From: Catellatospora coxensis
GTDB taxonomy: Bacteria; Actinomycetota; Actinomycetes; Mycobacteriales; Micromonosporaceae
Reading direction: 5' to 3'
NCBI RefSeq assembly: GCF_016862635.1
Contig: NZ_BONI01000002.1
Location: forward strand, 62,001-126,000
Length of the DNA: 64,000 nt
A model generated the notes under the pieces. It was not told the origin of the DNA and made no database searches. It saw nothing but the letters and a program-made list of their open reading frames with translations. The translations under genes and the position numbers were made by a program. Below, piece by piece: positions 31,488 through 45,785 of the stretch (position 1 is its first letter; every line of letters begins with the position of its first letter).

Positions 31488-31493
31488 ACGGCG

Positions 31494-32369
31494 ATGAGTA
31501 CCGTCCTGGCCGAGTTGGGCAAGAAGTACGCGGAGCGGTGGGTCAGCCTGCTGGTGCTGCCCGGATTGCTGTTCGTGGCCGCTGTGTTCGCTGCCACCGC
31601 GCTCGGCCATACGCTGGATTTCGGCCGCCTGACAACAACAGTCGAGCGCATGGCCGCCTCGGTGTCGCAGCAGCCGGGGACCCTGGCGGTAGTGGTCATC
31701 GTTGTCCCGGTGCTGTCGGCGGCCGCTGGGCTCGCCGCCGCAGCGGTGGCGAAGCTCGTTTCGCGGCTTTCGTTCGAGCCATGGCCGGCGGCGCTGTTGG
31801 TCAACCGGCGGGTCAGGCGGTGGAAGGCCGCCGCCGACGAGTTCGATGCAGTCCGCGACGACACTGCCGCAGCGTCCGCCCCCGACTACCAGGCTCGTCT
31901 GGATTCCCTTGCCGCCAAACGCAACGCGATCTCGCTAGGCCCACCGGAGCGGGCGACCTGGATGGGCGACCGGCTGCGTTCGGTCAGTACGCGCGTGTGG
32001 TCTTGGTACCGGCTCGACCTGGAATTTGCCTGGCCCCGGTTGTGGCTGCTCCTCGACGGCGACGAGCAGGAGTCCGTGAGGGCTGCACGCGCCCAGTTGG
32101 ACTCGGCGGTCATGCTCGCGGGATGGGGCGCGCTCTACGCAGCGCTGGCGATCTGGTCATGGCCTGCGGCACTCATCGGGGTCGCACTCGCCGCCGTGGC
32201 CCAACGGCAGTCGCGGGCAGCCGTGGACAACCTCGCCCATCTGATCGAAGGATCCTTTGATCTGCATGCAACAGACCTGGCCAGGGCGCTGGGTTTCGAG
32301 GTCGCACCAGGCACCCTGTCGCCCATCGTCGGTGCCGAAGTCACCGCGCACCTACGCAAAAACGTGTGA
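31494..32369 (+). CDS. membrane protein of the CHAT locus
   Basis: A 291-residue protein with two N-terminal hydrophobic segments ('WVSLLVLPGLLFVAAVFAATAL' and 'LAVVVIVVPVLSAAAGLAAAAVAKLV'), a cytoplasmic region of about 110 residues, a hydrophobic stretch near residues 205-235 ('MLAGWGALYAALAIWSWPAALIGVALAAVA') and a soluble tail. It follows the small Cys-rich gene with a 6-bp gap, so the two are cotranscribed. By analogy with systems where a protease releases a membrane effector it could be the effector, but it shows no gasdermin or other known pore-former signature. Confidence 0.75.
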   Translation: MSTVLAELGKKYAERWVSLLVLPGLLFVAAVFAATALGHTLDFGRLTTTVERMAASVSQQPGTLAVVVIVVPVLSAAAGLAAAAVAKLVSRLSFEPWPAALLVNRRVRRWKAAADEFDAVRDDTAAASAPDYQARLDSLAAKRNAISLGPPERATWMGDRLRSVSTRVWSWYRLDLEFAWPRLWLLLDGDEQESVRAARAQLDSAVMLAGWGALYAALAIWSWPAALIGVALAAVAQRQSRAAVDNLAHLIEGSFDLHATDLARALGFEVAPGTLSPIVGAEVTAHLRKNV

Positions 32370-32511
32370 GTGTCGAGGTGCGCACATCGATCAGACCTGG
32401 GAAATGCCCCCGGAGCGCAATCGATCTTCGGCCAGTCATCCCGGCTCAAGTTGACAGACCGGAACGATCACACAGCGGACGACAAACCCGTTCGTTGTAG
32501 ACCGTGCAAGC

Positions 32512-32538
32512 GCGGTGCCTAGCCAAGCGAGGCACCGC
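32512..32538. terminator. stem-loop in the 32370-32718 gap
   Basis: GCGGTGCCT (32512-32520) and AGGCACCGC (32530-32538) form a perfect 9-bp stem with a 9-nt loop. It could end both the plus-strand CHAT-locus transcript and the opposing minus-strand operon. Nothing else in this 349-bp gap is convincing; a short open frame on the minus strand has gene-unlike composition. Confidence 0.5.
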
Positions 32539-32718
32539 GAACCCAATCCAACAGAAATACTCAGCAGCGGCAGTATGAAGCGCCCGTCGGGGTCGGGGCG
32601 AAAGCGCCGGACTGGCCCACGCGCAGGCGCGGGCAGCCCGGACGGGGTCGAGATCTAGACACGCGGCGAACGTGCGCGCCGCGAGGAGCACGTTGCAGGC
32701 GTTGCACGTGGGCTCACG

Positions 32719-33711
32719 TCAGCTCTGCTCACCCAGCAGCAGCCGGAACCGGGCGCGGGCATCCGGGGCCGCGGTTGCCAGGGTCATGTCCAGGGCGGTT
32801 TGCACGGCCAGCCTCGGCACGGCCCCCTCCGCTTGCTCCCAGGCCGCGACGATGTCGGCAGCGGCGTTGAGCCTGCGGGCGAACTCCTTGACCTCAAGCC
32901 GCAGCGCCCGGCGAAGAGCGCGGGCATGCCGACCGGTCCAGGTCGCCACGACCACCGCACACGCGCAAGCGTGGGGACTGGCGCACACCCGTGCGGCGTT
33001 GGCGGCGGCGCGCTGCTGGGCGGTCTGCACCGCGAACGCGTTCTTCAGTTCCATCACCCGGACCGCAGCCTTGACCAGCAGAGCGTCCGCCTGTAGGAGC
33101 CGGTCCGCGCCGCGCCAGAAGTCCAGCGAGGCGACCTGGTGACCGGTCTCCAGGTTCGCCACGGCACTTCGCGAGCACAACAGCCGGCGGGCCAACTCCT
33201 GCTGAGTCAGGCGCGCATCGCGGCGGTATCCCCGAAGCCGGTCACCCAGCTCCCGCATGCACGCGGCGATGTCCTGGGGGGTCACCGGCGGTGCGTGCGA
33301 AGGCTCCCGCCAGTCTTCATGGCCGCACAGATCCGCCAGCCCTGCAGGCTCCGCCTCGGTGATAGGGCGCCGGGCGGCGGGCTCAACAGCGCTCGGCGAG
33401 GCAGGCGGGGCGGTGGCGGGCTCGGTGGTCTGGGAGCGGATGATGAACATCCCCAACTCCGCGTCGGTGGCCGCGCCGAGCACCGCCCGCAGCGCCTTGC
33501 GGTAGCCGACACTCGGCCACCTGAATTCCCCTCGCTCCAGCTTCCCGATGTAGTTCTCGTTCATCGCGGTGCGGATGCCAAGCTCGGTCAGGTGCAGGTT
33601 TGCCAGGTCGGCCAGCTCCTGCCGGGACATGGCCCGCCCCGAGCCTGACGGTGAGGCCAGTCGCAGCCGCGCCTGACGCATCAGGTGGTTCGGCGTGCGC
33701 TTGCCGCTCAC
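32719..33711 (-). CDS. multi-HTH XRE-type regulator at the end of the biosynthetic operon
   Basis: A 330-residue protein with an N-terminal HTH of the actinobacterial type ('MSRQELADLANLHL...NENYIGKLERGEFRWPSVGYRKALRAVLG', about residues 28-80). A second, classical XRE HTH lies at about 153-208 ('LGDRLRGYRRDARLTQQELARRLLCSRSAVANLETG'), and a third HTH-like region at about 270-320. The GTG start overlaps the stop of the upstream kinase gene (GTGA), so it is the last gene of the operon and may provide feedback control. Confidence 0.82.
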   Translation of the reverse strand: MSGKRTPNHLMRQARLRLASPSGSGRAMSRQELADLANLHLTELGIRTAMNENYIGKLERGEFRWPSVGYRKALRAVLGAATDAELGMFIIRSQTTEPATAPPASPSAVEPAARRPITEAEPAGLADLCGHEDWREPSHAPPVTPQDIAACMRELGDRLRGYRRDARLTQQELARRLLCSRSAVANLETGHQVASLDFWRGADRLLQADALLVKAAVRVMELKNAFAVQTAQQRAAANAARVCASPHACACAVVVATWTGRHARALRRALRLEVKEFARRLNAAADIVAAWEQAEGAVPRLAVQTALDMTLATAAPDARARFRLLLGEQS

Positions 33712-34496
33712 GGCAGCCTCCGGGTAGGCGCGTGAAGGCTCGCGATGTCGATGACCGAGCAGAGGTCGATGACGTGTTCGTCGAGTGCTGTCAGCTGCCC
33801 GTATGTGCTGTGCAGCGCGTTCTGGAGGTCGGGTCGCTGTTTCAGGACGCGGGTGGTGATCCTGACGAGGTCACGGGCGGCCAGGTCGTAGCGGGCGTGC
33901 TCGAAGTCGATCAGGCGCAGGATTCCGTCGCGGCCGAGCATGAGGTTGCGTGGCATGAAATCCAGGTGGCAGGGTGTCAGCGCGGGGATGTCGAGGCTGG
34001 CCAGTTGCGTTAGCTTCGTCTGCATCTGTGCTCGTTGCTGCGGAGTGAGGCTGGCGGTGGTGTTGGCGAGCCAGTACGTCCCTCGCTCGGCGAGGTAGGT
34101 ACCGAACCGTGGGTCGTGCTTGCTGGCGCTGGCCGTGTGCAGGTCGCGCAGCAGCGCCCCGGCCTGGGCGAACGCGTCCTGTTCCTGTTGGGCGGTCAGT
34201 CGCAGTTCGGTCAGGGGACTTCCGGTCACGGCGGTGACAGCCATTGCCGGGGGTGTCTCGCAAGTTGCCAGGAGTCGGGGCGTCCGGTCGGCCAGGGCTG
34301 GGGTCCAGGTGCGGTATGCGTGGACTTCCTGCTCGTGGGCTGTCATCGAGCGGTGGATCTTGATGATGACCTCACCGTGGTCGTGGGTGCGTACTCGCAT
34401 GGTCTTGGTCGCGAGGTGTCCGTCGTGCCAGCCGAGCAGTTCGAACCTCCCGAGCATCCGGCGGCCGGCGTCGATGAGGTCGGCGTTGCGGGTCAT
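33708..34496 (-). CDS. aminoglycoside-phosphotransferase-like kinase
   Basis: The start is the ATG at 34496, which overlaps the phosphatase stop codon (ATGA), giving 262 residues. The APH/choline-kinase fold is clear: Lys46 in 'VIIKIHRS', the catalytic loop 'HLDFMPRNLM' (Asp179, Asn184) and metal-binding Asp197 in 'LIDFEHAR'. The family phosphorylates hydroxyls of small molecules such as aminoglycosides, sugars and nucleoside antibiotics. In this operon it may phosphorylate a sugar or nucleoside intermediate, or serve as self-resistance. The substrate is unknown. Confidence 0.88.
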   Translation of the reverse strand: MTRNADLIDAGRRMLGRFELLGWHDGHLATKTMRVRTHDHGEVIIKIHRSMTAHEQEVHAYRTWTPALADRTPRLLATCETPPAMAVTAVTGSPLTELRLTAQQEQDAFAQAGALLRDLHTASASKHDPRFGTYLAERGTYWLANTTASLTPQQRAQMQTKLTQLASLDIPALTPCHLDFMPRNLMLGRDGILRLIDFEHARYDLAARDLVRITTRVLKQRPDLQNALHSTYGQLTALDEHVIDLCSVIDIASLHAPTRRLP

Positions 34497-35146
34497 GAGG
34501 GTTGCTCCGCGAGGTGGCTGGTGTCGTTGTGGGCGTCGAGCAGCCAGGTTGCGCGGCCGTGGCGGTTGATCTGGAGGCGCCAGCGGGCGACGGAGGTGTG
34601 GGCGGTGCTGAACCAGACCCGGATGCTTGCGCCGGTGGGCAGGCCGAGCAGCAGTGTGTGGGCGGCCTCGATGGTTTCGCCGTGTCCGATGATCAGGATG
34701 CGCTGGCCGGTGTGGCGCTGGATGAGCTTTTCGATCGTGGTGGTGGCTCGGGAGAGGTAGCTGTTCCACGAGTCGCCGCCGGGTGCGATCGGTGTGGCGG
34801 GCTGGTGCTGCATCGCACTGCCGAACACTTCCTTGACCTGGCTCCACGGCAGTCCGTCTGCGTCGCCGTGATCTGGTCCGCGCAGGTCGTTGACCACGGT
34901 GTACGGCATCTTCATGAGCCCGGTGACGGCGTCAGCGGTTTGGCGAACACGCAGTCTGGGCGAGCTGTAGACGGTGTGGAAGGGGCGCTGGTCGTGCTCA
35001 GCGGCGAGCCGGGTGGCGAGTCGCGCCGCCTGGTGGTGGCCGCGCTCGGTGAGCCCCGTGCAACCCTTGTCGCCGCCGACGGTGCCGTGGACGTTGCACA
35101 TGGCTTCGCCGTGGCGGGCGATTACCAGTTCGGTGCTGTCAGGCAT
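34493..35146 (-). CDS. histidine phosphatase (phosphoglycerate-mutase-like)
   Basis: A 217-residue member of the histidine phosphatase superfamily. It has the phosphoacceptor motif RHGE (His12), Arg in 'SSPRLRVRQTADAV' and the second catalytic His in 'LIIGHGET'. It overlaps both neighbours (TGATG upstream, ATGA downstream). Related enzymes in biosynthetic pathways dephosphorylate sugar phosphates or nucleotides, e.g. alpha-ribazole phosphatase, so it probably removes a phosphate from a pathway intermediate made by the surrounding kinases. Confidence 0.9.
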   Translation of the reverse strand: MPDSTELVIARHGEAMCNVHGTVGGDKGCTGLTERGHHQAARLATRLAAEHDQRPFHTVYSSPRLRVRQTADAVTGLMKMPYTVVNDLRGPDHGDADGLPWSQVKEVFGSAMQHQPATPIAPGGDSWNSYLSRATTTIEKLIQRHTGQRILIIGHGETIEAAHTLLLGLPTGASIRVWFSTAHTSVARWRLQINRHGRATWLLDAHNDTSHLAEQPS

Positions 35147-35877
35147 CAGCTTCTCCTATCGAGGGGGTCCGGCCACGGCCTCAGCTCGGGCCAGGGGTGT
35201 TGGTAGCCGTTGCGGCCGAGGTGGTCAGCGGTGAGCAGCCAGTTCAGTTCGGCCCAGACCCGCAGGCCGTCGGACGTGCACAGCGGTGGCCCGATCGGGT
35301 CGTGGTAGGCGTCGAGCGCGTCTTGCGCGGCGGCGGCTGGTAGCCGTCCGTGGGTCATCACGATCGAGACGATGAGTTTGGCGAGGTCGTAGCAGTGGGG
35401 GGCGAGGGTCAGGTCGTCGAAGTCGACGACGGCGACTTCACCGCCGGTGATCAGGAAGTTGCGGAGGTTGCTGTCCTTGTAGAGGCCAGCGGGCGAGGGT
35501 GCGGCCGTGGTCAGCGCGTACTCGGCCATGTCTGGCGGCAGGCCGAGCCGTGTGGCGGCCCGCAGCAGCTTGTCCAGCCGGGGTGTGATGAAGTCCGGGA
35601 TGACCATCGCGTCCAGTTGGTGCGGCTGGTCGATGCGCGCAGTGGCCAGGTGCGAGGTGGCCGACGCGTGGATGCGCCCGATGGCCTGCGCGAGCTGGGC
35701 CAGGTCCGCTGCCGTGGCTGGCCGTCCGTCGATGGCCTCGAAGACGAGGCGGTCTTCTGCGGCATCGACTATCGCCGGGATGACGACCGCGCTGGACAGC
35801 GATGTCAGCCAGCGGTGGTTGTCGTGGGCTCGCTGGCGTCGGGCTGGGTCCGCGTAGCGTTTGACGAACAGTGTCAT
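35146..35877 (-). CDS. second APH-like phosphotransferase
   Basis: I use the ATG at 35877, overlapping the methyltransferase stop (ATGA), giving 243 residues. It has a shortened APH-like kinase fold: 'MTLFVKRYADP' contains the likely ATP-binding Lys6, 'GLYKDSNLRNFLI' is the catalytic loop (Asp135, Asn140), and 'VAVVDFDDLTL' supplies the metal-binding Asp (152/154). Part of the N-lobe appears reduced. It is probably a small-molecule kinase in the pathway. It shares little beyond the catalytic motifs with the other kinase, so distinct substrates are likely. Confidence 0.8.
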   Translation of the reverse strand: MTLFVKRYADPARRQRAHDNHRWLTSLSSAVVIPAIVDAAEDRLVFEAIDGRPATAADLAQLAQAIGRIHASATSHLATARIDQPHQLDAMVIPDFITPRLDKLLRAATRLGLPPDMAEYALTTAAPSPAGLYKDSNLRNFLITGGEVAVVDFDDLTLAPHCYDLAKLIVSIVMTHGRLPAAAAQDALDAYHDPIGPPLCTSDGLRVWAELNWLLTADHLGRNGYQHPWPELRPWPDPLDRRS

Positions 35878-36680
35878 CGGCGGACTCCGACGAGGTAGGA
35901 GACCGTGGAACTTGCCGTGACGGGGTGGTCCGGTCGCCATGTGCGCAGGTGGCGTGCGATCTCTGCGGGGTCGGCGGTCGGCAGTTGGTAGCGGGGTGTG
36001 GTGATCAGGTAGCGGGCGAGATGTTCGTAGCTCTCGAATCGGAAGATGTGCCGCTCATGGAGCTGCTGGGCGATGGCCAGATGCGGTTGCGTGAGGGCAG
36101 CCATGTTCGCGCTGTGGAACGCCGTGTAGAGGCTTGGCCGTGAGCCGGCCTCGGGATCGAGGCCGGACGTGGCGGCGAGGTCGTCGAGTTCGGCGTAGCT
36201 GTCGGCGGACTTGGTGACCATGATCGCGGCCTGGCCGGGGCGCAGCGCTCGGGCGAAGCCGGAGATGACAGTGCCGGGGTCGGGCGAGTGGTAAAGGCAG
36301 AACGCCGCGACGATCGCGTCCAGGCTCGCGTCGGCGAACGGCAGTTGGTGGAAGTCACCGACGATGAACTGCGCAGACAGCCTCGCGGCGGCGAACCGGT
36401 TGCGCGCGGCATCCAGCAAGGCCGGGGAGGCGTCGAACGCGACCAGCCTGCGCAGCGGCAGGTGCCTGGCGATGCTCAGGGTCGTGCTGCCGCGCCCGCA
36501 GCCGATGTCGGCCACGATGCCGTCCGGCCCGGCGCGGTGGCGCAGCAGGTCGACGACAGTCTCGGCCACCGCCGCGCCTTTGATCTTTGCCTGGTGCAGG
36601 GCGGAGGTGCGCTGCGTCAGGCGCGCGGGGTCGGTGTAGAGCGTGCCCAGCGTGGCGGGGTCGAGGAACGGGTTGCCCAT
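35874..36680 (-). CDS. SAM-dependent class I methyltransferase
   Basis: A 268-residue Rossmann-fold methyltransferase with motif I 'VADIGCGRGS' (residues 56-65), acidic loop 'LVAFDASPALL', 'IVGDFHQLPFADASLDAIVAAFCLYH' and 'ALRPGQAAIMVTKS'. UbiE-like small-molecule O-, N- or C-methylation is the usual chemistry. It is tied to the next kinase gene by an ATGA overlap. Its acceptor is probably the pathway's nucleoside or sugar product. Confidence 0.9.
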   Translation of the reverse strand: MGNPFLDPATLGTLYTDPARLTQRTSALHQAKIKGAAVAETVVDLLRHRAGPDGIVADIGCGRGSTTLSIARHLPLRRLVAFDASPALLDAARNRFAAARLSAQFIVGDFHQLPFADASLDAIVAAFCLYHSPDPGTVISGFARALRPGQAAIMVTKSADSYAELDDLAATSGLDPEAGSRPSLYTAFHSANMAALTQPHLAIAQQLHERHIFRFESYEHLARYLITTPRYQLPTADPAEIARHLRTWRPDHPVTASSTVSYLVGVRR

Positions 36681-36705
36681 CAGCGGACCTCCCGTACGCC
36701 GACGG

Positions 36706-37215
36706 TCAGGCTGAGGTGGTGACCTCGCTGAGGAACGCGTTGGCCTGCCTGCGGCTGGTGAATGTCAGCAGCCGGGCGTGCGGGGCGTGCTGGGCGGTCA
36801 GCGCGGTGACCTTCGGGCGCATCTGTTTGCGGTAGCCGATGATGTAGCGCACGAAGTTCCAGGTGATCCGGTCGAACACGCCGTCCTTGTGGTGCTGGCC
36901 GCCACGGTAGCGCCAGCGGCGCTGCAAGATCCCCCACAGGCAGGTGGCGGCGGGCAGGTCCAGGAAGATCACGGTGTCGGCGGCGGCGAGCCGGATCGGC
37001 AGGGTGGAGGCGTAGTTGCCCTCGATCAGCCAGCGCTCGCCGGCGACGAGTTTCTCCTGCTGGGCGGCGAACTCCTCCTGGGGCAGCGGCTTCCAGTTCT
37101 CGTCGTAGTACACCGCGTCCAGGTGGGTGACCGGCAGGTCCAGCGTCAGGCCGAGCTGCTTGGCGATGGTCGATTTGCCGCTGCCGCCGCAGCCGATGAT
37201 GGCGATCCGCTCCAT
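36706..37215 (-). CDS. P-loop kinase of the topology-modulation/adenylate-kinase-like family
   Basis: A 169-residue P-loop protein: Walker A 'GCGGSGKST' (residues 8-16), 'PVTHLDAVYYDENWKPLP', 'WLIEGNYASTLPIRLAAADTVIFLDLP' and an Arg-rich lid ('RRWRYRGGQHHKDG'). The family, often annotated as DNA topology modulation protein FlaR, is built like nucleotide kinases. In a cluster with a cytidylate-type hydroxymethylase, it may phosphorylate the modified nucleoside monophosphate. That is an inference. It is separated from its downstream neighbour by 25 bp. Confidence 0.85.
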   Translation of the reverse strand: MERIAIIGCGGSGKSTIAKQLGLTLDLPVTHLDAVYYDENWKPLPQEEFAAQQEKLVAGERWLIEGNYASTLPIRLAAADTVIFLDLPAATCLWGILQRRWRYRGGQHHKDGVFDRITWNFVRYIIGYRKQMRPKVTALTAQHAPHARLLTFTSRRQANAFLSEVTTSA

Positions 37216-37263
37216 AGCGCTCCAGGTTATTCGACGGGTTTGTCTGAGGCAGGTCGAAGGTGG

Positions 37264-38298
37264 TCATGTCGCCGACACCACCCGCTCGTGCAGGATGCGC
37301 TCCAGCGTGAGCAGCTGCTTGGATACCCGAAACATGTCCAGGTACCGGAGGCAGTCGGTGATCAGCTCGGCGTGTTCGCGAGTGCCTTTGATCTCTCTCA
37401 GCCGGTCGCAGATCCGCGCGACGTCGGCGCTGTCGCGTACGTGCAGCTGGTCCGGGGCGAACTTGGCCGCCGAGCGGATGAGCCTCGGGGTGATCGGCAG
37501 GCATCCGGCCAGCACGGACTCAAACAGTCGTTGCGTCATGTGCCCGACCGCGGCGTAGCGGCGGGGAAGCAGCAGCACGGTAGCCAGGCTCGTGGCGTGG
37601 ATTGCCGCGACCGCCTCAAACGGGATCCGGCCGGTGAAGCGCACTTGCGGCCAGGCCGTGGTGTCGGTCCACTTCCCTGCAACGACGTGGGGCCGGGTCG
37701 CGGCGGCGGGGGCGAAGAACTGGTCGAACATGGCGTCGCGGTCGTACTGGTTGCCGACGTAGGCAAGGTCCAGGTGCCGGTCAGTTCGGGCCAGTCGCCA
37801 CGGGTCGGCGGTGTCGAGCGCGTGGTCGCTGACGGGAAAGAGCAGCGACGTCGCTCCAGGGCTCGGGTGCAGCGCGGGCTCACAGACGGCCACGTGGGGC
37901 AGCGTGCGCATCGGGTCGTGGGCGGGCAGCCAGCGGTCCTTGTCCCACAGGATCGTGGGGGTGCGCAGGCGGTGGGTGTAGTGGGCGACGAGGTCGGTCT
38001 GGCGGTGCAGGTCGCAGGTGTGTCCGGGGGCACCGCACCAGGTGTCGTTGCGGCCGGGGATCGGCCAGCGCCACTCCAGCATGAGCGCGTCGATCTCGGG
38101 CAGGCCCGCGTCCCACGTGTAGCGCGGCGGCAGAACGGTGCCGGCCTCGGCGAGGTCGCGGTCGGGCTGGAGGAACACGATGTCGTGGCCTCGGGCGAAC
38201 AGCGCGTCGATGAGGGTTCTGCGGTGGCTGCGCCCGCCGTCGGGGGTATCGGTGACGCCGGGGCCGAGGAAGCCCCAGAAGCTGTATCCGATCTTCAT
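37264..38298 (-). CDS. glycosyltransferase (CgeB-like, family-1 type)
   Basis: The start is the ATG at 38298, overlapping the carbamoyltransferase stop (ATGA), giving 344 residues. It is a GT-B-like protein: N-terminal 'KIGYSFWGFLGPGVTDTPDGGRSH' and 'LFARGHDIVFLQPDRD', and a C-terminal half with 'LDLAYVGNQYDRD', 'VRFTGRIPFEAVAAIHATS', and 'MTQRLFESVLAGCLPITPR', the typical nucleotide-sugar-binding end of CgeB-like and group-1 glycosyltransferases. It probably transfers the sugar made by the epimerase in the same operon. Donor and acceptor are unknown. Confidence 0.82.
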   Translation of the reverse strand: MKIGYSFWGFLGPGVTDTPDGGRSHRRTLIDALFARGHDIVFLQPDRDLAEAGTVLPPRYTWDAGLPEIDALMLEWRWPIPGRNDTWCGAPGHTCDLHRQTDLVAHYTHRLRTPTILWDKDRWLPAHDPMRTLPHVAVCEPALHPSPGATSLLFPVSDHALDTADPWRLARTDRHLDLAYVGNQYDRDAMFDQFFAPAAATRPHVVAGKWTDTTAWPQVRFTGRIPFEAVAAIHATSLATVLLLPRRYAAVGHMTQRLFESVLAGCLPITPRLIRSAAKFAPDQLHVRDSADVARICDRLREIKGTREHAELITDCLRYLDMFRVSKQLLTLERILHERVVSAT

Positions 38299-39998
38299 TT
38301 CGTCACCCACCAACCTTCGATGAGCAGGGCGTCCAGGCCCGATTCGGCAAGGCAGTCCAGCGCCATGCTCGGGGTGCCGCACATCGGCTTGCCTTTGATG
38401 TTCAGGCTCGTGTTGATCAGGACGGGGTGTCCGGTGATGTCGCCGAATGCCTGCAACACCTGGGCGAGGAACGGGTTGGATGCGGCGGTGACGGTCTGCA
38501 CGCGGGCGGTGCCGTTGGCGTGGACGATCGAGGGCAGGTGCTTGCGGGCGTGCGCCGTGGCCGGGACCGCGATCGACATGAACGGTGAGGGCTGATCGAG
38601 GCAGAAGTAGTCGGCCGCGCGGTGCGCCAGCACCATCGGCGCGAACGGCCGGAACGGCTCGCGGAACTTCACTGTGGCGTTGAGCCGGTCGACCACGCCA
38701 GGCTCCAGCGGACTGGCCAGGATCGAGCGGTGACCCAGGGCGCGGGGTCCGGCCTCCAGCGCCCCGGTGAACAGGCCGACGATCTTCCCGTCGGCCAGGT
38801 GCCGGGCCAGCAGCCCGGCAGCCCGGTCGACTTTCACGGCGGTCAGACCGGGCCTGGGATGGGTCGGCAGGTTGAGGTTCGGGAAGGAAGGTCCGAGGTA
38901 GCAGCGGCCTTCGACACCGGTCGGGATCTTCCCGCTGCTGGCGTGCCACGCGTCGGCAGCCGCGCCGATCGCGGTGCCGGAGTCTCCCGGCGCGGCCGGG
39001 ACGTGGACCTCGTCGCAGAACCCGGCCTGGGCGATCTTCCCGATGGACACGCAGTTCATCGCCACGCCGCCGCCGACGCACAGCAGCCGGGACTTGCTCA
39101 TCCGGCGGGTTATCGCGGCGAGGTTGACCATGATCTGCTGGGTGCGTGCCTGCAACGCCGCCGCGAGGTCTGCGTGCACCTGCTCGACCGGGGCGTGCGA
39201 GTCGCGCGGCGGGCACGACTGGGCGGCCAGCCGTTGCGAGACTCGCTGATACCGGCTGGACAGCACCCGCAGCGGCAGCAGGCGCGGATTCAGTGTGAAG
39301 CCCGAATCGTCGCCTGGGATGGCGCGGCGGATGAGCTGCGCGAACCGCTCGGGGTCACCGCCGGCCGCCAGCGCCATGACGGTACCTTCCTCATCGCCGC
39401 GCCGCCAGCCGAGGTGCTCGGTGATCGCGCCGTAGGCGTAGCCGAGCGATGCCGGATCACGCAGCTCGTGCAGGAGCCGCAGCGGCCGGGACGCGCTTGG
39501 CAGCCCGTGCCACAAGGTGGTGGTTTGCGTCTCGCCGAGGCTGTCCACGATCAGCACCCCGGCCTCGTCGAAACCCGACGACAGCAGCGCGGTCCAGGCG
39601 TGCGCCCGATGGTGCAGGACCGGGTGCAGCTTCGCGTTCGGGAACCGCACGGCCAGCTCCGCCAGGCGGGCGCGGGTGCGCCGGGCGACCTTGACGAAGC
39701 TGGCCGCCCGCGGCAGCGCCCGGCCCACGGTGGCCGTGCGCATCAACTGCCCCGGCGTCTGGCGCAGCGCACCCCAGTACCGCTCCGGCCGGAAGTTGTA
39801 CGCGACCGTGGTCACGCTGGCAGCGGTCAGCCCGGCCTGGTTCAGCAGCCAGTCGATCGAGTGCTGCGGAAACGCCTTCGAGTGCTTGATCCCGTCGAGG
39901 CGCTCCTCCTCGCAGAACCCGATCAGCTCCCCGTCGACCAGCAGCGCTGCGGCCGAGTCGTGGGTGTTGGCGCACAACCCGAGAATCACGCTCCTCAT
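38295..39998 (-). CDS. TobZ/NodU-type O-carbamoyltransferase
   Basis: A 567-residue protein with the two-domain carbamoyltransferase layout. The Kae1-like N-terminal domain has 'HDSAAALLVDGELIGFCEEERL' (His13-Asp14), 'HHRAHAW', 'VLIVDSLGE' and 'LCVGGGVAMNC'. The C-terminal YrdC-like-associated region has 'FREPFRPFAPMVLAHRAADYF' and a closing 'PVLINTSLNIKGKPMCGTP'. The family forms carbamoyl adenylate from carbamoyl phosphate and ATP and transfers carbamoyl to a hydroxyl. The adjacent cytidylate-type hydroxymethylase would create such a hydroxyl. It overlaps both neighbours by 4 bp. Confidence 0.93.
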   Translation of the reverse strand: MRSVILGLCANTHDSAAALLVDGELIGFCEEERLDGIKHSKAFPQHSIDWLLNQAGLTAASVTTVAYNFRPERYWGALRQTPGQLMRTATVGRALPRAASFVKVARRTRARLAELAVRFPNAKLHPVLHHRAHAWTALLSSGFDEAGVLIVDSLGETQTTTLWHGLPSASRPLRLLHELRDPASLGYAYGAITEHLGWRRGDEEGTVMALAAGGDPERFAQLIRRAIPGDDSGFTLNPRLLPLRVLSSRYQRVSQRLAAQSCPPRDSHAPVEQVHADLAAALQARTQQIMVNLAAITRRMSKSRLLCVGGGVAMNCVSIGKIAQAGFCDEVHVPAAPGDSGTAIGAAADAWHASSGKIPTGVEGRCYLGPSFPNLNLPTHPRPGLTAVKVDRAAGLLARHLADGKIVGLFTGALEAGPRALGHRSILASPLEPGVVDRLNATVKFREPFRPFAPMVLAHRAADYFCLDQPSPFMSIAVPATAHARKHLPSIVHANGTARVQTVTAASNPFLAQVLQAFGDITGHPVLINTSLNIKGKPMCGTPSMALDCLAESGLDALLIEGWWVTK

Positions 39999-40933
39999 GC
40001 CGGCACCACCGGAGTCAGATGCTCCAGCCAGGCACGCAGGCTCTGACCGAGCGGCCCGCCGACCTGCGCGGCCGTCGCCCGGCCGCCGTCGCGGTCACCG
40101 GCTCGGAAGGCCCGGTAGCACGACATCGTGTTGGCGAAGTCCACCCACAGGCTGCCAGCGGGCAGCGCCTGCACATCCCCACTGATCGTCGCCGCCAGGA
40201 TCGCGTCCAGGCGCGGCCACGGGGTCGAGATCGGCGCCATCGGCTGCGCCTCGGCCTCGGCGGGCACGAGAGTCGCCTGCTCGAAGTGCTCGGCGTACAG
40301 GTGCAGCGAGTCGACCGAGTGCACGTAGTCGCCGAGTTCGACGCCCAGCCAGCCGGCCATCAGCTCCTGGATGAGTGTCGCGGTGAAGATGTCGTAGGGC
40401 AGGCCGAGCCACAGGTCGTTGCTGCGCATCGTCGTGTGCATGTTCAAGCGGCCGTCGCGTAGGAAGAACCGGTATCCCAGCGTGCACGGGATGTCCGAAC
40501 CGCCGCTCAGGTCCCGAGCCGGGTCGAACAACTGCACGACGGCGCGGCGCGAGTCAGGGTCACTGTGCAGCTGCAGGCGCGAGCGGTCGAGCTGGTCGAC
40601 GCCGTGCCAGCGGCGCATCCGAGGGCCGTACGCCCCGCGCAGCACGCCGCCGTCGGCGTAGCGCTCCAGCGTCCGGTTGAACTCGAAGATCCACGGCTCG
40701 TCGGACCCCGAGATGATCCACATGGCCTCCGCGACCGCGAATGCCGCGTTGAGCATCCGCGCCGGAGGAAGGTGGATCAGCCTGCGTCGAGGGTCGGTCA
40801 GGCGCAGCTGCGCCCCAAGGATCTCCCGGGTGACCATGCCGCGAGGCCCGGCCAGGCGACCGTGGCGCAGGATGTGGCTGTTGGCAGCGGTGAACAGGCC
40901 CGCCGCCGACGAGGCACTGAACATCGCCGTCAT
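39995..40933 (-). CDS. thymidylate-synthase-fold enzyme with cytidylate-hydroxymethylase signature
   Basis: The start is the ATG at 40933, overlapping the epimerase stop, giving 312 residues. It keeps the thymidylate-synthase core: catalytic Cys150 ('DIPCTLGY'), the Arg pair in 'DPDSRRAVVQLF', 'MRSNDLWLGLPYD' aligning with the QRSxDxxLGLPFN motif, and His211/Tyr213 in 'SLHLYAEH'. Position 181 is Asp where dUMP enzymes have Asn (Asn177 in E. coli); this replacement is known from T4 dCMP hydroxymethylase and CMP hydroxymethylases such as MilA. The usual PCH His is Thr. 5-Hydroxymethylation of (d)CMP is therefore predicted; ribo versus deoxy is not resolved. Confidence 0.85.
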   Translation of the reverse strand: MTAMFSASSAAGLFTAANSHILRHGRLAGPRGMVTREILGAQLRLTDPRRRLIHLPPARMLNAAFAVAEAMWIISGSDEPWIFEFNRTLERYADGGVLRGAYGPRMRRWHGVDQLDRSRLQLHSDPDSRRAVVQLFDPARDLSGGSDIPCTLGYRFFLRDGRLNMHTTMRSNDLWLGLPYDIFTATLIQELMAGWLGVELGDYVHSVDSLHLYAEHFEQATLVPAEAEAQPMAPISTPWPRLDAILAATISGDVQALPAGSLWVDFANTMSCYRAFRAGDRDGGRATAAQVGGPLGQSLRAWLEHLTPVVPA

Positions 40934-41907
40934 CGCGCACTGCCCGACAGCTCGGTGGTGAACGTGCTCACCAGCTCCGCGGGCAGGCCGCGCAGCCACT
41001 CGGCCTGACGAGCCAGCCCTTCGCGGATGTCCACCGCGGGCTGGTAGCCCAGCAGTTCGCGGGCCAGCGACAGGTCCGCACGAGTCGCCGGGACGTCACC
41101 AGGCTGAGCCGCCACCGCCGTCAGCGGCACCGGACGCCCAGCGACCTCCGAGGCGATGTCGATCGCCTCGATCATCGACACGCTCGCCCCGCCACCGACG
41201 TTGATGATCTCCTCTTGAGCGTCGATCTTCGCGGCGGCCATGGTCGCCGCGACGACGTCGGAGACGTAGGTGAAGTCGCGGCGCTGGGTGCCGTCGCCGT
41301 ACAGGGTCAGCGGAAGACCCGTATAGGCGGCCAGCAGCAGCCTGCCGAAAGCCATGTCGGGCCGCTGGCGCGGGCCGTAGACGGTGAAGTAGCGCAGCGC
41401 CACCACCGACAGCGGGTTGTCGTGCCGCCGCGCGTAAGCCAGGCACAACTGCTCACCGGCGAGCTTGGTCACCCCGTAGGGCGACATGGGCCGACAGTCG
41501 TCGTCCTCGCCGCTGGGTGCCCGCACCGCTCCGTAGACGCTCGACGAGGAGGCGTACACCACGCGCGAGGTGCGGGCACGCCAGCACGCCTCCAGCAGCC
41601 GGTGCGTGCCCAGCACGTTGGCCGTCACATAGTTGCCGAAGTCGTCACCCCAGGAGCCCCGCACACCCGGCTTGGCCGCCAGGTGGAACACGGTGTCGCA
41701 CCCTGCCACCACCGCGTCCAGCGAATCGCTGGTGAGATCCAGATGCACCGGCATGAACAGCGGCGAGCCCATCAGCTCGCCGACCGTGTCCTCAAAGCGT
41801 GGCGGCGCGTAGTCGAGTCCAACCACCTGGACACCATCGCTGACCAGAGCTGACACCAGGTGCGATCCGATGAACCCCGATGCACCGGTGACGAGAACCC
41901 GCTTCAT
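40930..41907 (-). CDS. NAD-dependent nucleotide-sugar epimerase/dehydratase
   Basis: A 325-residue extended SDR: NAD-binding 'GASGFIG' (8-14), 'VFHLAAKPGVRGSW', Ser in 'YASSSSVYG', catalytic Tyr144-Lys148 ('YGVTK'), and 'YGDGTQRRDFTYVSDVV', the sugar-nucleotide contact region. It most resembles UDP-glucose/UDP-glucuronate 4-epimerases. It probably supplies the activated sugar for the glycosyltransferase of the operon. It is linked by ATGA overlaps to the small gene upstream and to the hydroxymethylase downstream. Confidence 0.9.
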   Translation of the reverse strand: MKRVLVTGASGFIGSHLVSALVSDGVQVVGLDYAPPRFEDTVGELMGSPLFMPVHLDLTSDSLDAVVAGCDTVFHLAAKPGVRGSWGDDFGNYVTANVLGTHRLLEACWRARTSRVVYASSSSVYGAVRAPSGEDDDCRPMSPYGVTKLAGEQLCLAYARRHDNPLSVVALRYFTVYGPRQRPDMAFGRLLLAAYTGLPLTLYGDGTQRRDFTYVSDVVAATMAAAKIDAQEEIINVGGGASVSMIEAIDIASEVAGRPVPLTAVAAQPGDVPATRADLSLARELLGYQPAVDIREGLARQAEWLRGLPAELVSTFTTELSGSAR

Positions 41908-42179
41908 CGCACACCCGCCATCGTGCCGCTTGAAGACATCGCAGCGTCGTCGGCGACGTCGGTGTCACGGCCCGACAGCGCGATAACCTTCGGCCGCTGC
42001 CGACCAGCCTGCACCGGTGCGAGACCGCACAGCGAAGAGAACACGGTCCGCGCGGCGGTCATGTCCGCCACCGGCAGCGCCTCCAGCACGCGCTCAGGAG
42101 TAGCGCGCTCATCACGTCGCTGACCGGGATGAAGAAGCGGTCGCACCTCAGTCAGCACGACCATGAACCGCGGGGACAT
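41904..42179 (-). CDS. small first gene of the biosynthetic operon (91 aa)
   Basis: A 91-residue protein overlapping the epimerase start by ATGA, which supports that it is translated. The start 'MSPRFMVVLTEVRPLLHPG' gives way to 'TPERVLEALPVADMTAARTVFSSL' and a Gly/Asp-rich tail. It has no transmembrane or known catalytic motif. As the promoter-proximal gene it may be a leader regulator or a small carrier-like subunit; I do not recognise it. Confidence 0.65.
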   Translation of the reverse strand: MSPRFMVVLTEVRPLLHPGQRRDERATPERVLEALPVADMTAARTVFSSLCGLAPVQAGRQRPKVIALSGRDTDVADDAAMSSSGTMAGVR

Positions 42180-42296
42180 CGAATATCCTTCCGTCGTCGA
42201 ACTTCGATGTCCCGACTATCCGAACCTTCACGCCGCGTGGTAACCGTCGCCACGGGAACCCACGTTGACCAAGACCGCCAGGTGTAAGGGGTGCAT

Positions 42297-42310
42297 CTTG
42301 GGTACCCAAG
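42297..42310. promoter_or_regulatory. palindromic operator candidate between divergent operon and regulator
   Basis: CTTGGGTACCCAAG is a perfect 14-bp palindrome, embedded in a longer imperfect dyad running outwards to GGGG/CCCC on both sides. A second palindrome, CGCATATGCG, lies about 25 bp further right. Both sit in the 267-bp gap between the minus-strand operon (start 42179) and the plus-strand HTH-TPR gene (42447), as expected for a regulator-controlled divergent promoter. Confidence 0.6.
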
Positions 42311-42446
42311 GTGTATTCCCCGGGTCACGAAATGCGCATATGCGGCGCAACTGGCGCGACGCCAAATTCAGTCGGCCGCGACGGTATACAGTGCCTACGC
42401 TCTATGTTTACGCTGCGTGGACTGTTCCTAGCAGGGGGGTGACGGC

Positions 42447-43883
42447 GTGGGGGCGCATATCGATCCCGCCTGGTGGCGTGACCCCGGCATGGCCGAGCGG
42501 CTGCACAGGCAGGACATCGCAGCCGTCTTCCGCGTACTCAAGAAGCACGGGTGGTCCAACACCCGCATCGCCGCAGTCACCGGCCTCGGCACCCCTCGCG
42601 TGGGCGACATCCTCGCCGAGCGGCACCTGGTCCGCACCTACGATGTTCTGGTGCGCATCGCCGACGGACTCGGCATCGAGCGTGGTCTGATGGGGCTCGC
42701 TTATACCGCCGAGACGTCAAACACGCAACAGGCTCCCTCCACAGAGGGGGGTGTCACGGTCGACCCCGCTGTAGCAGCACTAAACGAAGACCGAACCTGG
42801 GGCCTATCCTGGGGCACAGACGTCAGCTCAACGCTGCGTGTGGTCACCGGGATGTGGGGGGCGGACATGAATCGCCGAGACTTCGTCGTCAACACCGCAT
42901 TCGTCGGCGGCGGCTTTGCCGGACCCGCCCGCGACTGGCTGCTCGGCTGGCCTGACGCCGACGTCAGCTCCGTCGGGACCGGCCGCAAAGTCGGACAGAC
43001 CGACGTCGACATGCTCTGGCTGTCATGCCACTCCTTCCAAGAGATCGACCGGCGGATGGGCGGCGGCTACGCACGAGGCAGCCTCGTGCACTTCCTCAAC
43101 AACGTCGTCACCCCACTGCTGCGCGGTGACTTCACCGAAGACGTCGGCCGTCAACTACTCGCCGTGTCCGCTCGGCTGACCGACATCGCCGGATACTCCG
43201 CATACGACGCGCACGAGCAGGGCCTCGCCCAGCGCTACTACATCCAAGCCCTGCGCATGGCACGCTCCGCCGACAACGACGCCCTCGGAGCACACATCTT
43301 CGGAGACATGACCCGCCAGTCGTACTACATCGGCGAACTAGACGAAGCCGTGTCCCTCGCACGCGCAGGACAGCAGGCCGCCCAGCGTGCCAGCTCGTGG
43401 TTCGGTGTGGCGAGGTGTGCATCACTGGAAGCGCGAGCGCTCGCCATGCAAGGCGACCGCACCAGCAGCCAGGCTGCCATGACACGCGCGGAGAAGGCAA
43501 TGGCCAAGGCCAACGCTGACGACGAACCCGCATGGATCAAGTACTTCTCGATGGACCAACTCGAAGCCGAGTTCGCTCATGCCGCAGAGGCGCTCGGTCG
43601 GCCCCGGGAAGTACTCCGATTCGCCGAACCGGCGCTGGCCGCCGACCGACCCCTCGAACGCCGCAACGTACTCGTAGGCACCACCGCCGCACGCGCCCAC
43701 GCCGCCAACGGCGACATTGAGAAAGCGGCGCATCTCGGCATCCAGGTATTGGACATGATCGGCGCGATGTCATCCGAGCGAGCGCTGGATTCGGCGAGGC
43801 AATTGCGGACGGTTCTAGCCCCCCACGCACGGGGAGCCGCAGCAGAGTTTGCCGCGAAGGCACGAGAGGTTCTGCCCGCGTGA
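42447..43883 (+). CDS. HTH-TPR transcriptional regulator divergent from the biosynthetic operon
   Basis: A 478-residue protein with a GTG start behind a G-rich ribosome binding site. The N-terminal HTH ('DIAAVFRVLKKHGWSNTRIAAVTGLGTPRVGDILAERH', about residues 23-70) is followed by a linker with a twin-Arg-like 'MNRRDFVVNTAFVGGGFAG' segment. A long TPR-like helical domain then runs from about residue 190 to the end ('AQRYYIQALRMARSADNDALGAHIFGDM...'). This layout is common in actinobacterial regulators next to secondary-metabolism genes. It most likely controls the divergent nucleotide-modification operon through the palindromes between them. Confidence 0.85.
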   Translation: MGAHIDPAWWRDPGMAERLHRQDIAAVFRVLKKHGWSNTRIAAVTGLGTPRVGDILAERHLVRTYDVLVRIADGLGIERGLMGLAYTAETSNTQQAPSTEGGVTVDPAVAALNEDRTWGLSWGTDVSSTLRVVTGMWGADMNRRDFVVNTAFVGGGFAGPARDWLLGWPDADVSSVGTGRKVGQTDVDMLWLSCHSFQEIDRRMGGGYARGSLVHFLNNVVTPLLRGDFTEDVGRQLLAVSARLTDIAGYSAYDAHEQGLAQRYYIQALRMARSADNDALGAHIFGDMTRQSYYIGELDEAVSLARAGQQAAQRASSWFGVARCASLEARALAMQGDRTSSQAAMTRAEKAMAKANADDEPAWIKYFSMDQLEAEFAHAAEALGRPREVLRFAEPALAADRPLERRNVLVGTTAARAHAANGDIEKAAHLGIQVLDMIGAMSSERALDSARQLRTVLAPHARGAAAEFAAKAREVLPA

Positions 43884-44058
43884 CCACCCGCGCAATTTCG
43901 GCGTCTAAGTGCTCATTACCGTTAATTCGTCGGGGGTCACGCAGCGGCGGGTAGGGGCGCGTGGGTGGCGAGGCGTTTGAGGTGCGCTTCAAGATCCTTC
44001 TTGGTGTATCGCCAGTTGGACGGTCGTGCGCTGTCGCCGCTCCGTGAAGACTGGATCT

Positions 44059-45785
44059 GGATCTGGCCCAGTTTCATTGATCGAAGCTGGCCCTCGTCAG
44101 GATGTCAGGTTGCGAGAAGGACTCGCTTGCGTAGCAAGTCGAAGCTCGCCCGGCCGTACATCTGCCTCTTGAGCATCTTGATCCTGTTCACTCCGCCCTC
44201 CACCGCGCCTGAGCTGTAGGGCAGGGTCAGGCCGTTGAGTACCGCCGCGTGGTCGCGCTTCAGCCCGTTCGCGAACGAGTGCAGGTGGGGCAGGTCGTCA
44301 GACTGGACCTGGATGATCCATTTGTTGAGGCGCTCGCCGTGCAGGCCGGTCATCATCTCGGCGAAGGCGGTCACGTGTGCGGCGGTGGCCGCGAGGTGCG
44401 GGCAGCGGTCGAGCAGTTGTTGGAGCTGCTCGGCCTCGGCCGGTTCGAGGCGTTCGGGTCGGCTCAGCAGCCAGCTGGTGAGCTGCCGGACCTTCGGCAG
44501 TGCTGGCCGGGCGGGTGTGTGCGGCAGGTTTCGTAGCGGCTTGAGGTAGCTGCGCAGCGTCGTTGCGGTTCCGCGGTAGCCGAGCTCGCGGATCTCGGCG
44601 AACAGCGTGGCTGCATTGGTGCAGCCAGCGCCCCATCGCTGGTGCAGGTAGGGCTTGAAATCGTCCAGGATCCTGGGTCGGCCAGCGCGGGTGGTGACCA
44701 GGAGATCCTCGACCTGCTCGGCGCGGACGAAACGGCGCACGGTGCCACGTGCGAGTCCGAGCCGGCGTGCGATGGCCTTTATGCCCACGCCCTGTGCCTG
44801 CAGCTGCTGGATCTGCTCGAAGCGCTTTCGGGTCCGTGGCGCGAGCCTGCCGGTCTCGGCCCACACGGCGGCGGCCTCGCCTGCAGCCTGCAGCAACTCT
44901 GACTCGGGTGCTGACGGAGGGGGCAGCTCGAGCGGGTCGCCCGACAGGCAGCTGTAGTGGCGGGCGACGGTCTTCTCGACGTGTTCGCCGAGGTTACGCC
45001 ACAGATGCCGGCGGTCGGCCACCTCGATGGCCGCCGGTGCGCCTGTGCGGACCGCGTCGGCATAGGCGCTGGCGCGGTCGCGGCAGACGACCTCGATCTC
45101 CGAACGGCCTTCCAGCCACGCGGCCAGGGTGGCCGCCTGCCGATCTGGCAGCAGGTCGACGGGCCGGTGGGTGTCCAGGTCGATGAGCACGGTGCCGTAG
45201 ACGTGTCCCCGACGCAGCGCGAAGTCGTCGACGCCGAGCACCCACACTGCCACCGGTGCAGGATCGGGCAACGCACGTATGAGCCGCAGGAGGCTGCTGC
45301 GGCTGATGCCAAGGCCGAGATGCCCGCACAGCCGGGCGCCGGCACGCCCGGCCAGAGCCAGCCCGATCTTCTCCAGCGCGGCACGCAGTAGCGGGCTTCG
45401 CCTCGCGTACCTACTGGACAGGCCGTCGAGCTGTTCGGCGAAGCGGCGTACCCGGCAATCAGGCTGCTGGCACACGAACAGGCGCACCGTCAGCACGATC
45501 ACGACCTGACGCCCGCCGACTGCGAGGTCGGCCAGGCGCCGTCGGTAGCGGCCGTGCACCCGGGCCGACAGCTGGCCGCACACCGGACACCGTGCCGTCC
45601 GGCCCAGTGGCCTGGCCCGGATCCGCACCTCCGAACCAGCCTGGTCGACACCGTCGACAGAAACGCCAGCCAAGGTACGGCAGCAGAACGTCAAGTCACT
45701 GCTCAACGCACCGGAGCACCGTACACATCGGACGAGAACGTCACACGCCAGGGGCAACCTTCGATCAATGGAACTGGCCAGATCC
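44059..45785. mobile_element. ISL3-family insertion sequence
   Basis: Imperfect terminal repeats GGATCTGGCCCAGTTTCATTGATCGAAG (44059-44086) and their complement (45759-45785) enclose one transposase gene. I see no clear 8-bp target duplication, so the exact outer bases, or a later deletion, remain open. Confidence 0.75.
44105..45757 (-). CDS. ISL3-family transposase
   Basis: The reading frame is 550 codons; the true start is probably somewhat downstream of 45757 since no ribosome binding site fits between the repeat and that codon. The protein has the N-terminal zinc finger ('[26 protein letters not shown]... [15 protein letters not shown]'), the DDE core ('[35 protein letters not shown]'; '[11 protein letters not shown]'; the late Glu in '[21 protein letters not shown]') and an inserted HTH ('[23 protein letters not shown]'). 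All motifs are intact, so it may be active. Confidence 0.9.

Follow-up and report, generated by a model that had tools for sequence, protein, structure and literature searches.

The window, a 64,000-nucleotide stretch of a Catellatospora coxensis contig, carries nine enzyme genes and an HTH gene that form a single operon (32719-41907, minus strand) on a mobile element (Table 1). Read 5' to 3', the operon encodes an epimerase, a hydroxymethylase (HM), a carbamoyltransferase (CT), a glycosyltransferase (GT), a P-loop kinase (NK), a methyltransferase, the kinase APH1, a histidine phosphatase, the kinase APH2 and the HTH protein. As read from the sequence, six of the nine junctions from the epimerase to the HTH gene are 4-bp overlaps (epimerase/HM, HM/CT, CT/GT, methyltransferase/APH1, phosphatase/APH2 and APH2/HTH), APH1 and the phosphatase gene overlap by 1 bp, and gaps of 48 and 25 bp separate GT from NK and NK from the methyltransferase gene; the gene set, positions and predominance of 4-bp overlaps described in an earlier note on this DNA thus all stand. 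For HM, the start at 40933, which gives a 4-bp overlap, is more likely than that at 40999, and the starts of APH1 and APH2 were corrected to 35877 and 34496, respectively. Upstream, a 91-aa ORF overlaps the epimerase gene by 4 bp and has relatives, among loci L055-L141, in L055 and L064 only. A promoter scan of the divergent region yielded no match to a sigma-70-like promoter.

Table 1. Features of the operon, its flanks and the element that carries it (window coordinates)
Feature	Coordinates	Strand	Evidence and distribution
HTH_31 protein, last gene	32719..33711	-	no counterpart at this position found in the other loci
APH-type kinase 2	33708..34496	-	Pfam APH 2e-16; 49/75 loci
Histidine phosphatase (CobC/acid-phosphatase-like)	34493..35146	-	matches below NCBIfam cut-offs; 50/75 loci
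APH-type kinase 1	35146..35877	-	68/75 loci
SAM methyltransferase	35874..36680	-	66/75 loci
P-loop kinase NK (adenylate-kinase-like fold), candidate hydroxymethyl-dCMP kinase	36706..37215	-	PRK08118; fold; 71/75 loci
GT-B glycosyltransferase	37264..38298	-	Pfam PF13524 1e-06; model pLDDT 94; Foldseek
O-carbamoyltransferase (GdmN/NovN/TobZ family)	38295..39998	-	Pfam 1e-60 and 1e-34; GdmN 2e-73
Predicted deoxycytidylate-type hydroxymethylase (thymidylate synthase family)	39995..40933	-	Cys150, Asp181, Arg129, Ser171
NDP-sugar epimerase, probably UDP-glucuronate 4-epimerase	40930..41907	-	MoeE5 5e-80
91-aa leader ORF, nearest relatives only	41904..42179	-	L055 49%, L064 44%
Divergent intergenic region	42180..42446	.	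sequence
NsdA-family HTH-TPR regulator, divergent	42447..43883	+	NCBIfam NF053720 2.5e-88, 297 bits, cut-off 75
Integrated element carrying the operon, about 42.3 kb	10745..53082	.	empty site in congeners; ends good to about 5 bp
Serine recombinase, left end of element	10791..12386	+	Pfam Resolvase 7e-23, Recombinase 2e-10
DUF2637 protein	17378..18223	-	Pfam 2e-11; relatives in 8/138 collected loci, some duplicates
Replication-relaxation protein	18571..19428	-	PF13814 1e-38; relatives in 13/138 collected loci
TraD/TrwB-like coupling protein (weak)	19553..21019	-	Pfam 8e-06, NCBIfam SXT_TraD 7e-07
ISL3 transposase	44105..45757	-	Pfam 1e-32

The operon is the cargo of an integrative element with a serine integrase at one end. 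In both congeners examined (G407 and G373), window position 10744 adjoins 53083 at a site that lacks the element, in agreement with the mobility proposed earlier. Candidate conjugation genes found on the element are limited to those for the replication-relaxation and DUF2637 proteins and the weak TraD match.

The comparative search that the earlier note had proposed shows that the gene set recurs. HM relatives with 52-60% identity occur in 7 of 297 other genomes of the order, all with E values of at most 6.3e-101, the next match falling to 1.3e-43; all 7 share the gene order, and 5 of these 7 loci contain all nine enzymes, L039 and L040 being without the methyltransferase. The presence of an HM relative in 7 of the 297 genomes, always in the same gene order, indicates conservation beyond chance; the operon is real and conserved. 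A scan of genome contigs for HM gave 80 kept loci, partly from the same genomes as in the 297-genome search, 75 of which combine HM, CT and GT, mostly with the other operon enzymes. The pathway is found, in a nearly fixed order, in Streptomyces, Micromonospora, Nocardia, Actinomadura and others. In one clade, the epimerase gene leads the operon; in the other, it follows the rest of the core genes (the tree was built from the window and 68 loci, 7 of the 75 having been dropped because their CT or GT matches were short or interrupted). The locus counts of operon genes in Table 1 rest on tblastn and are lowered by loci cut by contig ends; genes within the loci were predicted from GC position by a home-made procedure, which overlooks some of them. 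A UDP-glucose-6-dehydrogenase-type gene (Ugd) lies downstream in 4/75 loci, and a radical-SAM gene is inserted in 4/75; for the L085 copy, the one tested, the best NCBIfam match is the viperin model, scoring 56 bits where the cut-off is 180. An NsdA-type regulator has a tblastn match in 41/75 loci, a raw count, and we claim linkage for the window only.

HM belongs to the thymidylate synthase family (PF00303, 7e-29), and its closest solved relative is MilA. In an alignment of 79 HM sequences (the window and 78 loci), with positions assigned via MilA, the catalytic Cys150, Glu69 and Tyr213 are present in all 79, and His211 and Arg129 in 78 each; Asp181, at the cytosine-reading position (177 in E. 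coli thymidylate synthase), is found in 77, the two exceptions, both Asn, belonging to L131 and L136, in neither of which a CT or GT was found. Position 171 is occupied by Ser in 52 sequences, including that of the window, and by Gly in 27. The account of substrate choice in PMC5175136 pairs Asp with cytosine, Ser and Arg with deoxyribose, and Ala and Lys with ribose, and describes a MilA double mutant that switched to dCMP; Asp181, Arg129 and Ser171 make up the dCMP-hydroxymethylase set given there. From these residues, we strongly infer that HM converts dCMP to 5-hydroxymethyl-dCMP, whereas the proteins with Gly171 may perhaps also accept CMP. The cytidylate-type hydroxymethylase of the earlier note is thus upheld, residue 181 being Asp rather than Asn. 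Two other assignments were rejected, namely, a MilA-type CMP enzyme, given that Arg129 and Ser171 replace Lys133 and Ala176 of MilA in the window HM, and a housekeeping thymidylate synthase, given Asp181 and the presence of ThyX in the host, where HM is the only PF00303 protein. To our knowledge, a dCMP-type hydroxymethylase that is not a thymidylate synthase is unusual in cellular genomes.

The CT shares its two-domain family with GdmN, NovN and TobZ; these O-carbamoyltransferases act on antibiotics, whereas the window CT is a putative carbamoyltransferase assigned at the family level. It matches GdmN over nearly the whole length (2e-73) and PHROG 1601 at 4e-96; identity to the phage CTs is 26-30% in the 30 records listed out of 141, identity in the 15 plasmid records listed out of 310 is 36-38%, and the CT is nearer to GdmN and NovN than to the listed phage CTs. 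The GT model (m586e8d31d407, pLDDT 94) adopts a GT-B fold, with T4 BGT at ranks 3, 6, 9, 10, 18 and 34 among the first 50 PDB matches in Foldseek (TM 0.61-0.65), although rank 1 is another enzyme with a similar TM-score and GT-B folds resemble one another widely; the alignments used for folding (61 rows for GT, 54 for NK) were chosen by us from the loci. At the sequence level, the GT showed no significant similarity to T4 BGT (profile E 0.58) and no match in the phages collection. These two assignments support the carbamoyl and sugar transfer anticipated in the earlier note. Among solved structures, MoeE5 is the nearest to the epimerase (5e-80), and by the reaction of MoeE5, the window enzyme is probably a UDP-glucuronate 4-epimerase; this relationship, along with the Ugd-type genes, lends indirect support to the uronic sugar suggested previously. 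NK matches NCBIfam PRK08118 at 7e-49, below the cut-off, and its fold resembles those of adenylate and shikimate kinases to about the same degree. PADLOC returned HTH models, a MADS mad2 hit (6e-20) covering the methyltransferase part and two weak hits for APH2 (0.007), and on this basis, we rejected a known defense system.

Outside the cellular loci, GT alignments recovered viral contigs with a kinase-GT-HM arrangement, namely, kinase-GT-HM-epimerase cassettes in L139/L140 and a kinase-GT-HM-DNA polymerase cassette joined by 4-bp overlaps in L205, the kinases and the polymerase being named by eye; the HM of all these contigs carry Arg, Ser and Asp. Viral contigs scanned with the HM alignment yielded three distant relatives, and those scanned with the CT alignment no match, so that the presence of class I operons, the kind found in the window, in viruses is not supported. 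A sister group of operons, class II, encodes a related GT and HM with MilA-like residues (Lys in 15/15; Gly in 14, Ala in 1); genes for an NDK-type kinase and an RNase_T-type exonuclease lie close by. It appears, from these residue patterns, that there are two parallel versions of the pathway, class I predicted to act on dCMP and class II on CMP, with one common GT family. The HM-GT-kinase core, alike in kind to the viral cytosine-hypermodification cassettes, was probably recruited from one.

In accord with the earlier note, which knew of no described pathway with this gene set, we found no described cluster of this composition in searches of open-access PMC papers. The phage 5hmC carbamoyltransferase system found by MetaGPA, as presented in PMC8670742, similarly combines a thymidylate synthase-family cytidylate hydroxymethylase, with Asp at the base-reading position, and an O-carbamoyltransferase; HM and CT genes are likewise adjacent in the window and 75/80 loci. 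That system comes from phage contigs, and its chemistry has been demonstrated on 5hmdC DNA, RNA and 5hmdCTP in vitro, whereas the window presents a cellular operon that adds the GT, epimerase, kinases, methyltransferase and phosphatase. PMC8670742 also links particular CT residues to the modification of DNA. The T4-type hydroxymethyl-dCMP pathway shares the HM residue set (PMC5175136), a nucleotide-type kinase and a GT-B transferase, T4 BGT being among the nearest folds; the window operon, by contrast, encodes neither a polymerase nor a dCTPase, would add carbamoyl, methyl and phosphate chemistry and lies outside a phage genome.

What the operon makes is, in our view, about evenly poised between one reading and all others: a phage-type cytosine-hypermodification core would have been recruited and extended to yield a glycosylated, O-carbamoylated 2'-deoxycytidine nucleotide or nucleoside. 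After hydroxymethylation of dCMP, the epimerase would provide a UDP-uronic acid or related sugar, which the GT, with viral relatives that adjoin dCMP-type hydroxymethylases, would place on the hydroxymethyl-cytosine nucleotide; the CT would carbamoylate a sugar hydroxyl or the 5-hydroxymethyl group; NK, the two APH kinases, the phosphatase and the methyltransferase would phosphorylate, dephosphorylate and methylate intermediates; and the end product would be a free nucleotide or nucleoside. We lean toward a free molecule over DNA, because the operon includes a phosphatase and two APH kinases, carries further sugar genes in its Streptomyces form and encodes neither a polymerase nor a dCTPase. 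The CT and GT could compete for one hydroxyl, which makes any order of these steps a guess. As to export, none of the 552 genes predicted within 75 loci encodes 5 or more hydrophobic segments according to a home-made gene and segment finder, which did pick up the permease-like gene at 58755 of the window; such genes account for 4/193 within 2 kb of the loci against 10/179 at 4-11 kb. The operon thus indeed lacks a transporter gene, as noted earlier, and an exporter encoded within or next to the gene set, as would mark a nucleoside-antibiotic cluster, was not found. The lack of an exporter runs counter to secretion of a free product, and the viral relatives favor DNA as the target.

Hypermodification of DNA, whereby hydroxymethyl-dCMP would be converted to a triphosphate and polymerized, or the CT and GT would act on DNA itself, protecting the element or the chromosome from restriction with carbamoylated or glycosylated hydroxymethylcytosine, is possible but seems to us rather unlikely. 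It would fit the dCMP-type HM residues, the occurrence of a related GT in viral cassettes, of which one adjoins a DNA polymerase gene, the T4 BGT-like fold, the location on a mobile element, the lack of an exporter and, in the account of PMC8670742, the activity of the known 5hmC carbamoyltransferase on DNA and 5hmdCTP; yet no polymerase or dCTPase family was detected by Pfam among the ten proteins, the phosphatase and the two APH kinases have no evident role in such a scheme, and the CT is closer to GdmN and NovN than to the phage enzymes listed. The lack of an exporter, together with the nucleotide-type kinase in the core, the radical-SAM insertions in 4/75 loci with the below-cut-off viperin match of the L085 copy, the kinase and exonuclease genes near class II loci and the 8 of 40 GT places of the family that are partial or broken, is also compatible with an intracellular antiviral or signaling nucleotide, a modified deoxycytidine triphosphate that would block phage replication as viperin products do. 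We consider this improbable, considering that the PADLOC matches amount to no known system, that a polymerase would not necessarily be halted by carbamoyl or sugar groups at C5 and that 71/75 loci lack the radical-SAM gene. Most doubtful is a mildiomycin-like ribonucleoside antibiotic made from hydroxymethyl-CMP and a cytosyl-uronic acid. The mildiomycin pathway shares with the window the HM family, with MilA the closest solved relative, cytosine recognition by Asp and, possibly, the uronic sugar to which the epimerase points, but both residues through which MilA prefers CMP are absent, and neither a base-freeing hydrolase nor, in the Pfam matches for the ten proteins, an N-glycosidase family was found; the mildiomycin-like logic of the earlier note is not supported.

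A broader scenario, which we offer tentatively, is that a phage-type core was domesticated by actinomycetes and mobile elements, in class I dCMP and class II CMP versions, the sugar- and carbamoyl-bearing deoxycytidine being used in the cell, in DNA or as a phage-poisoning triphosphate. The product of the window operon would represent a new class of modified deoxycytidine and, if polymerized into DNA, a precursor-fed cytosine hypermodification encoded by cellular genomes, of which we know no earlier case. The viral-cassette GT, the CMP-type sister class and the dCMP class render the choice between DNA base, nucleotide effector and antibiotic directly testable, and the contrast of Arg/Ser with Lys/Gly or Ala provides a natural test of how deoxyribose or ribose is chosen in the thymidylate synthase family.

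The ten genes running from the NDP-sugar epimerase to the HTH gene, and the divergent regulator, lie where an earlier note had placed them and belong, by family searches, to the families it had named. The description of these genes as mostly joined by 4-bp overlaps holds for six of the nine junctions and fails for one 1-bp overlap and two gaps, which, read from the sequence, separate the glycosyltransferase (GT) gene from that of the P-loop kinase (NK; 48 bp) and the latter from the methyltransferase (MT) gene (25 bp). A search of the host genome found no second operon copy.

Features of the operon and of the element that carries it (window positions)
Feature	Position	Strand or setting	Basis
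Ten-gene block, epimerase to HTH gene	41907 down to 32719	minus strand	gene calls
Divergent regulator	42447-43883	opposite to operon	gene calls
Gene apparently interrupted by element	10254-10744 + 53083-54283		two-congener comparison
1483-aa TPR-CHAT protein	26624-31075	within same mobile element	
2047-aa YD-repeat protein (RHS-like by eye)	46115-52258	near element's right end	

The comparative search for the same gene set proposed in that note has now been run, and the set recurs. Among 298 genomes of the order, the hydroxymethylase (HM) query matched 150 at E 1e-15; the host and seven others, the latter at 52-60% identity, are well separated from the remaining matches, presumably mostly ordinary thymidylate synthases. 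All seven relatives keep the order epimerase-HM-CT-GT-NK-(MT)-APH1-HisP-APH2 (CT, O-carbamoyltransferase; APH1 and APH2, APH-type kinases; HisP, histidine phosphatase), with MT missing from two. A single profile scan of genome contigs with the eight aligned HMs recovered 84 relatives, of which 80 loci were kept, some in genomes of the order-wide set. As scored by tblastn at 1e-8, with some loci cut by contig ends, HM, CT and GT were all found in 75 of the 80, accompanied by NK in 71, MT in 66, APH1 in 68, HisP in 50, APH2 in 49 and the epimerase in 72; the other five comprise L078 and L086 (HM and epimerase, CT and GT not found) and L131-L133 (distant HM only). Carriers include Streptomyces, Micromonospora, Nocardia, Frankia, Actinomadura, Nonomuraea and Salinispora. 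With the host counted, GT occurs in 11/394 genomes of the class (E 1e-20) and 39/250 of the family (E 1e-10). A radical-SAM gene separates GT from NK in L074, L085, L092 and L129; for the copy tested, that of L085, the top-scoring NCBIfam model is viperin, with a score well short of the cut-off.

According to published work (PMC5175136), Asp at the equivalent of HM position 181 denotes cytosine, and Arg and Ser at the equivalents of 129 and 171 denote deoxyribose. Judged by alignment with MilA, the window HM has this residue set, that of dCMP enzymes. Across 79 sequences (the window and 78 loci), Asp181 is present in 77 and Arg129 in 78, and position 171 is occupied by Ser (52 sequences) or by Gly (27, from Streptomycetaceae and one Glycomyces). 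The two exceptions at position 181, where the base is read, are L131 (Gordonia) and L136 (a virus); both carry Asn there and neither CT nor GT was found at either locus, so that they are probably uracil-type enzymes. The host genome encodes ThyX and no PF00303 protein besides HM, so that HM is not the cell's sole thymidylate route.

The nearest solved structure to the epimerase is MoeE5 (5e-80), which we take to be a UDP-glucuronate 4-epimerase, and a nucleotide-sugar dehydrogenase gene lies downstream in 4/75 loci. CT is a member of the GdmN/NovN/TobZ family, the NK model has an adenylate-kinase-like fold, and HisP resembles alpha-ribazole and acid phosphatases, under the cut-offs of those models. 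The predicted GT structure (pLDDT 94) matched GT-B enzymes; among its first 50 PDB matches, T4 beta-glucosyltransferase (BGT) stands at ranks 3, 6, 9, 10, 18 and 34 and the T4 alpha-glucosyltransferase at ranks 29 and 30, and among predicted viral proteins, two Bacillus phage SP-15 glycosyltransferases stand at ranks 5 and 7. The likeness of the model to BGT is suggestive only, because PDB rank 1 is another GT-B enzyme of similar TM-score and the GT sequence profile matches BGT at E 0.58. Relatives of GT also occur on viral contigs, in the orders kinase-GT(31%)-HM-epimerase (L139 and L140, one IMG/VR lineage) and kinase-GT(28%)-HM-DNA polymerase, with 4-bp overlaps (L205, a 7.6-kb IMG/VR contig), the kinases and polymerases being identified by eye; in L141, GT (29%) and HM are ~5 kb apart. 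All four HMs are of the Arg/Ser/Asp type and, given that viruses use this GT family beside dCMP-type hydroxymethylases, hydroxymethyl-cytosine is the likely GT acceptor.

The family scan yielded 40 GT places in 39 genomes: 17 operons as in the window (class I), 14 loci with GT and HM but neither CT nor NK (class II), one GT that lacks an HM partner, and eight places judged incomplete or disrupted from tblastn coverage (operon or GT copies, L174-L181, with intact ones found elsewhere). Class II HMs carry a MilA-like set, with Lys129 and Asp181 in 15/15 and Gly171 in 14, Ala replacing it in the prophage-like L138. With this set in class II and the dCMP set in class I, one GT family is, as read from these residues, common to CMP-type and dCMP-type pathways. 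Beside GT in 16 class II-type loci, including L138 and the GT-only L173, are an NDK-type kinase (7), an RNase_T-type exonuclease (12) and a CX3CX2C protein (13), the Pfam names being those of the L138 members. The CX3CX2C protein of L138 matched neither Pfam nor NCBIfam models and would be radical-SAM-like by its motif. The class II set of L138 (IMG/VR 2818991273, 2047-11582) has, besides the MilA-like HM, GT and all three of these neighbours, an aldo/keto reductase and NUDIX; a phage minor-tail-type gene follows downstream, and an HTH-TPR regulator is present.

What the operon makes can be read in several ways. We favour a free nucleotide or nucleoside, at about even confidence, in view of the two APH kinases, the phosphatase and the variable accessory sugar genes. 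That the product is destined for DNA, as a hypermodification, seems rather unlikely, yet this reading draws on the dCMP preference predicted from HM residues, the viral relatives of GT and HM, the failure of a home-made finder to detect an exporter among predicted genes inside the 75 loci, and the carbamoyltransferase activity on 5hmdC DNA and 5hmdCTP described in PMC8670742. An intracellular antiviral or signalling nucleotide, to which the radical-SAM gene in 4/75 loci, its tested copy closest to viperin but under the cut-off, and the class II NDK-type kinase and RNase_T-type exonuclease point, is distinctly improbable. In its workings the operon resembles a phage cytosine-hypermodification pathway to which natural-product chemistry has been added, and we liken it to the phage carbamoylated hydroxymethylcytosine (5cmC) system without classing it there. 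The components are known; in the open-access papers searched, no description was found of the set, of its spread or of its probable product, in keeping with the earlier remark that its author knew of no described pathway with this exact set.

In a quick tree built from 69 CT+GT rows, class I separates into two forms: a clade of 30 rows, mostly Streptomycetaceae, in which the epimerase, where found, lies downstream of the other core enzymes, versus one of 39, including the window, in which it is the first gene. The 30-row clade has an unnamed 616-aa-type protein upstream in 24/30 rows, a HAD phosphatase in 23/30, a downstream KdsB-like cytidylyltransferase in 21/30 and, in some rows, NUDIX and an adenosylhomocysteinase-like protein; all Gly171 HMs in the tree fall here, where Ser171 also occurs. 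In Streptomyces-type loci such as L104, L118 and L123, with Gly171 HM, the 616-aa protein is a weak surface-carbohydrate match. On the tree, Bacterial families are interspersed in it, with 3 changes required for Streptomycetaceae and 4 for Streptosporangiaceae, and the two operon copies of Streptomyces tanashiensis fall into different subclades, a pattern that fits transfer, short of proof.

The operon had been called mobile, and this is borne out by a site without the element in both congeners examined, G407 and G373, where window position 10744 adjoins 53083 (alignments overlapping by 5 bp in each), and by a serine recombinase at one end of the intervening 42.3 kb. This comparison calls for some caution: the left flank aligns at 90% identity and the right at 74% and 71%, and right-flank paralogues are numerous in the genus. 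The undisturbed site appears, as read by eye, to be a sigma-factor HTH region. Among 11 genomes of the genus, seven have no GT match, G308 and G410 have fragments only, and G341 has GT without HM. Loci of both classes repeatedly have replication-relaxation and DUF2637 genes nearby (13/138 and 8/138 loci, respectively, duplicates included).
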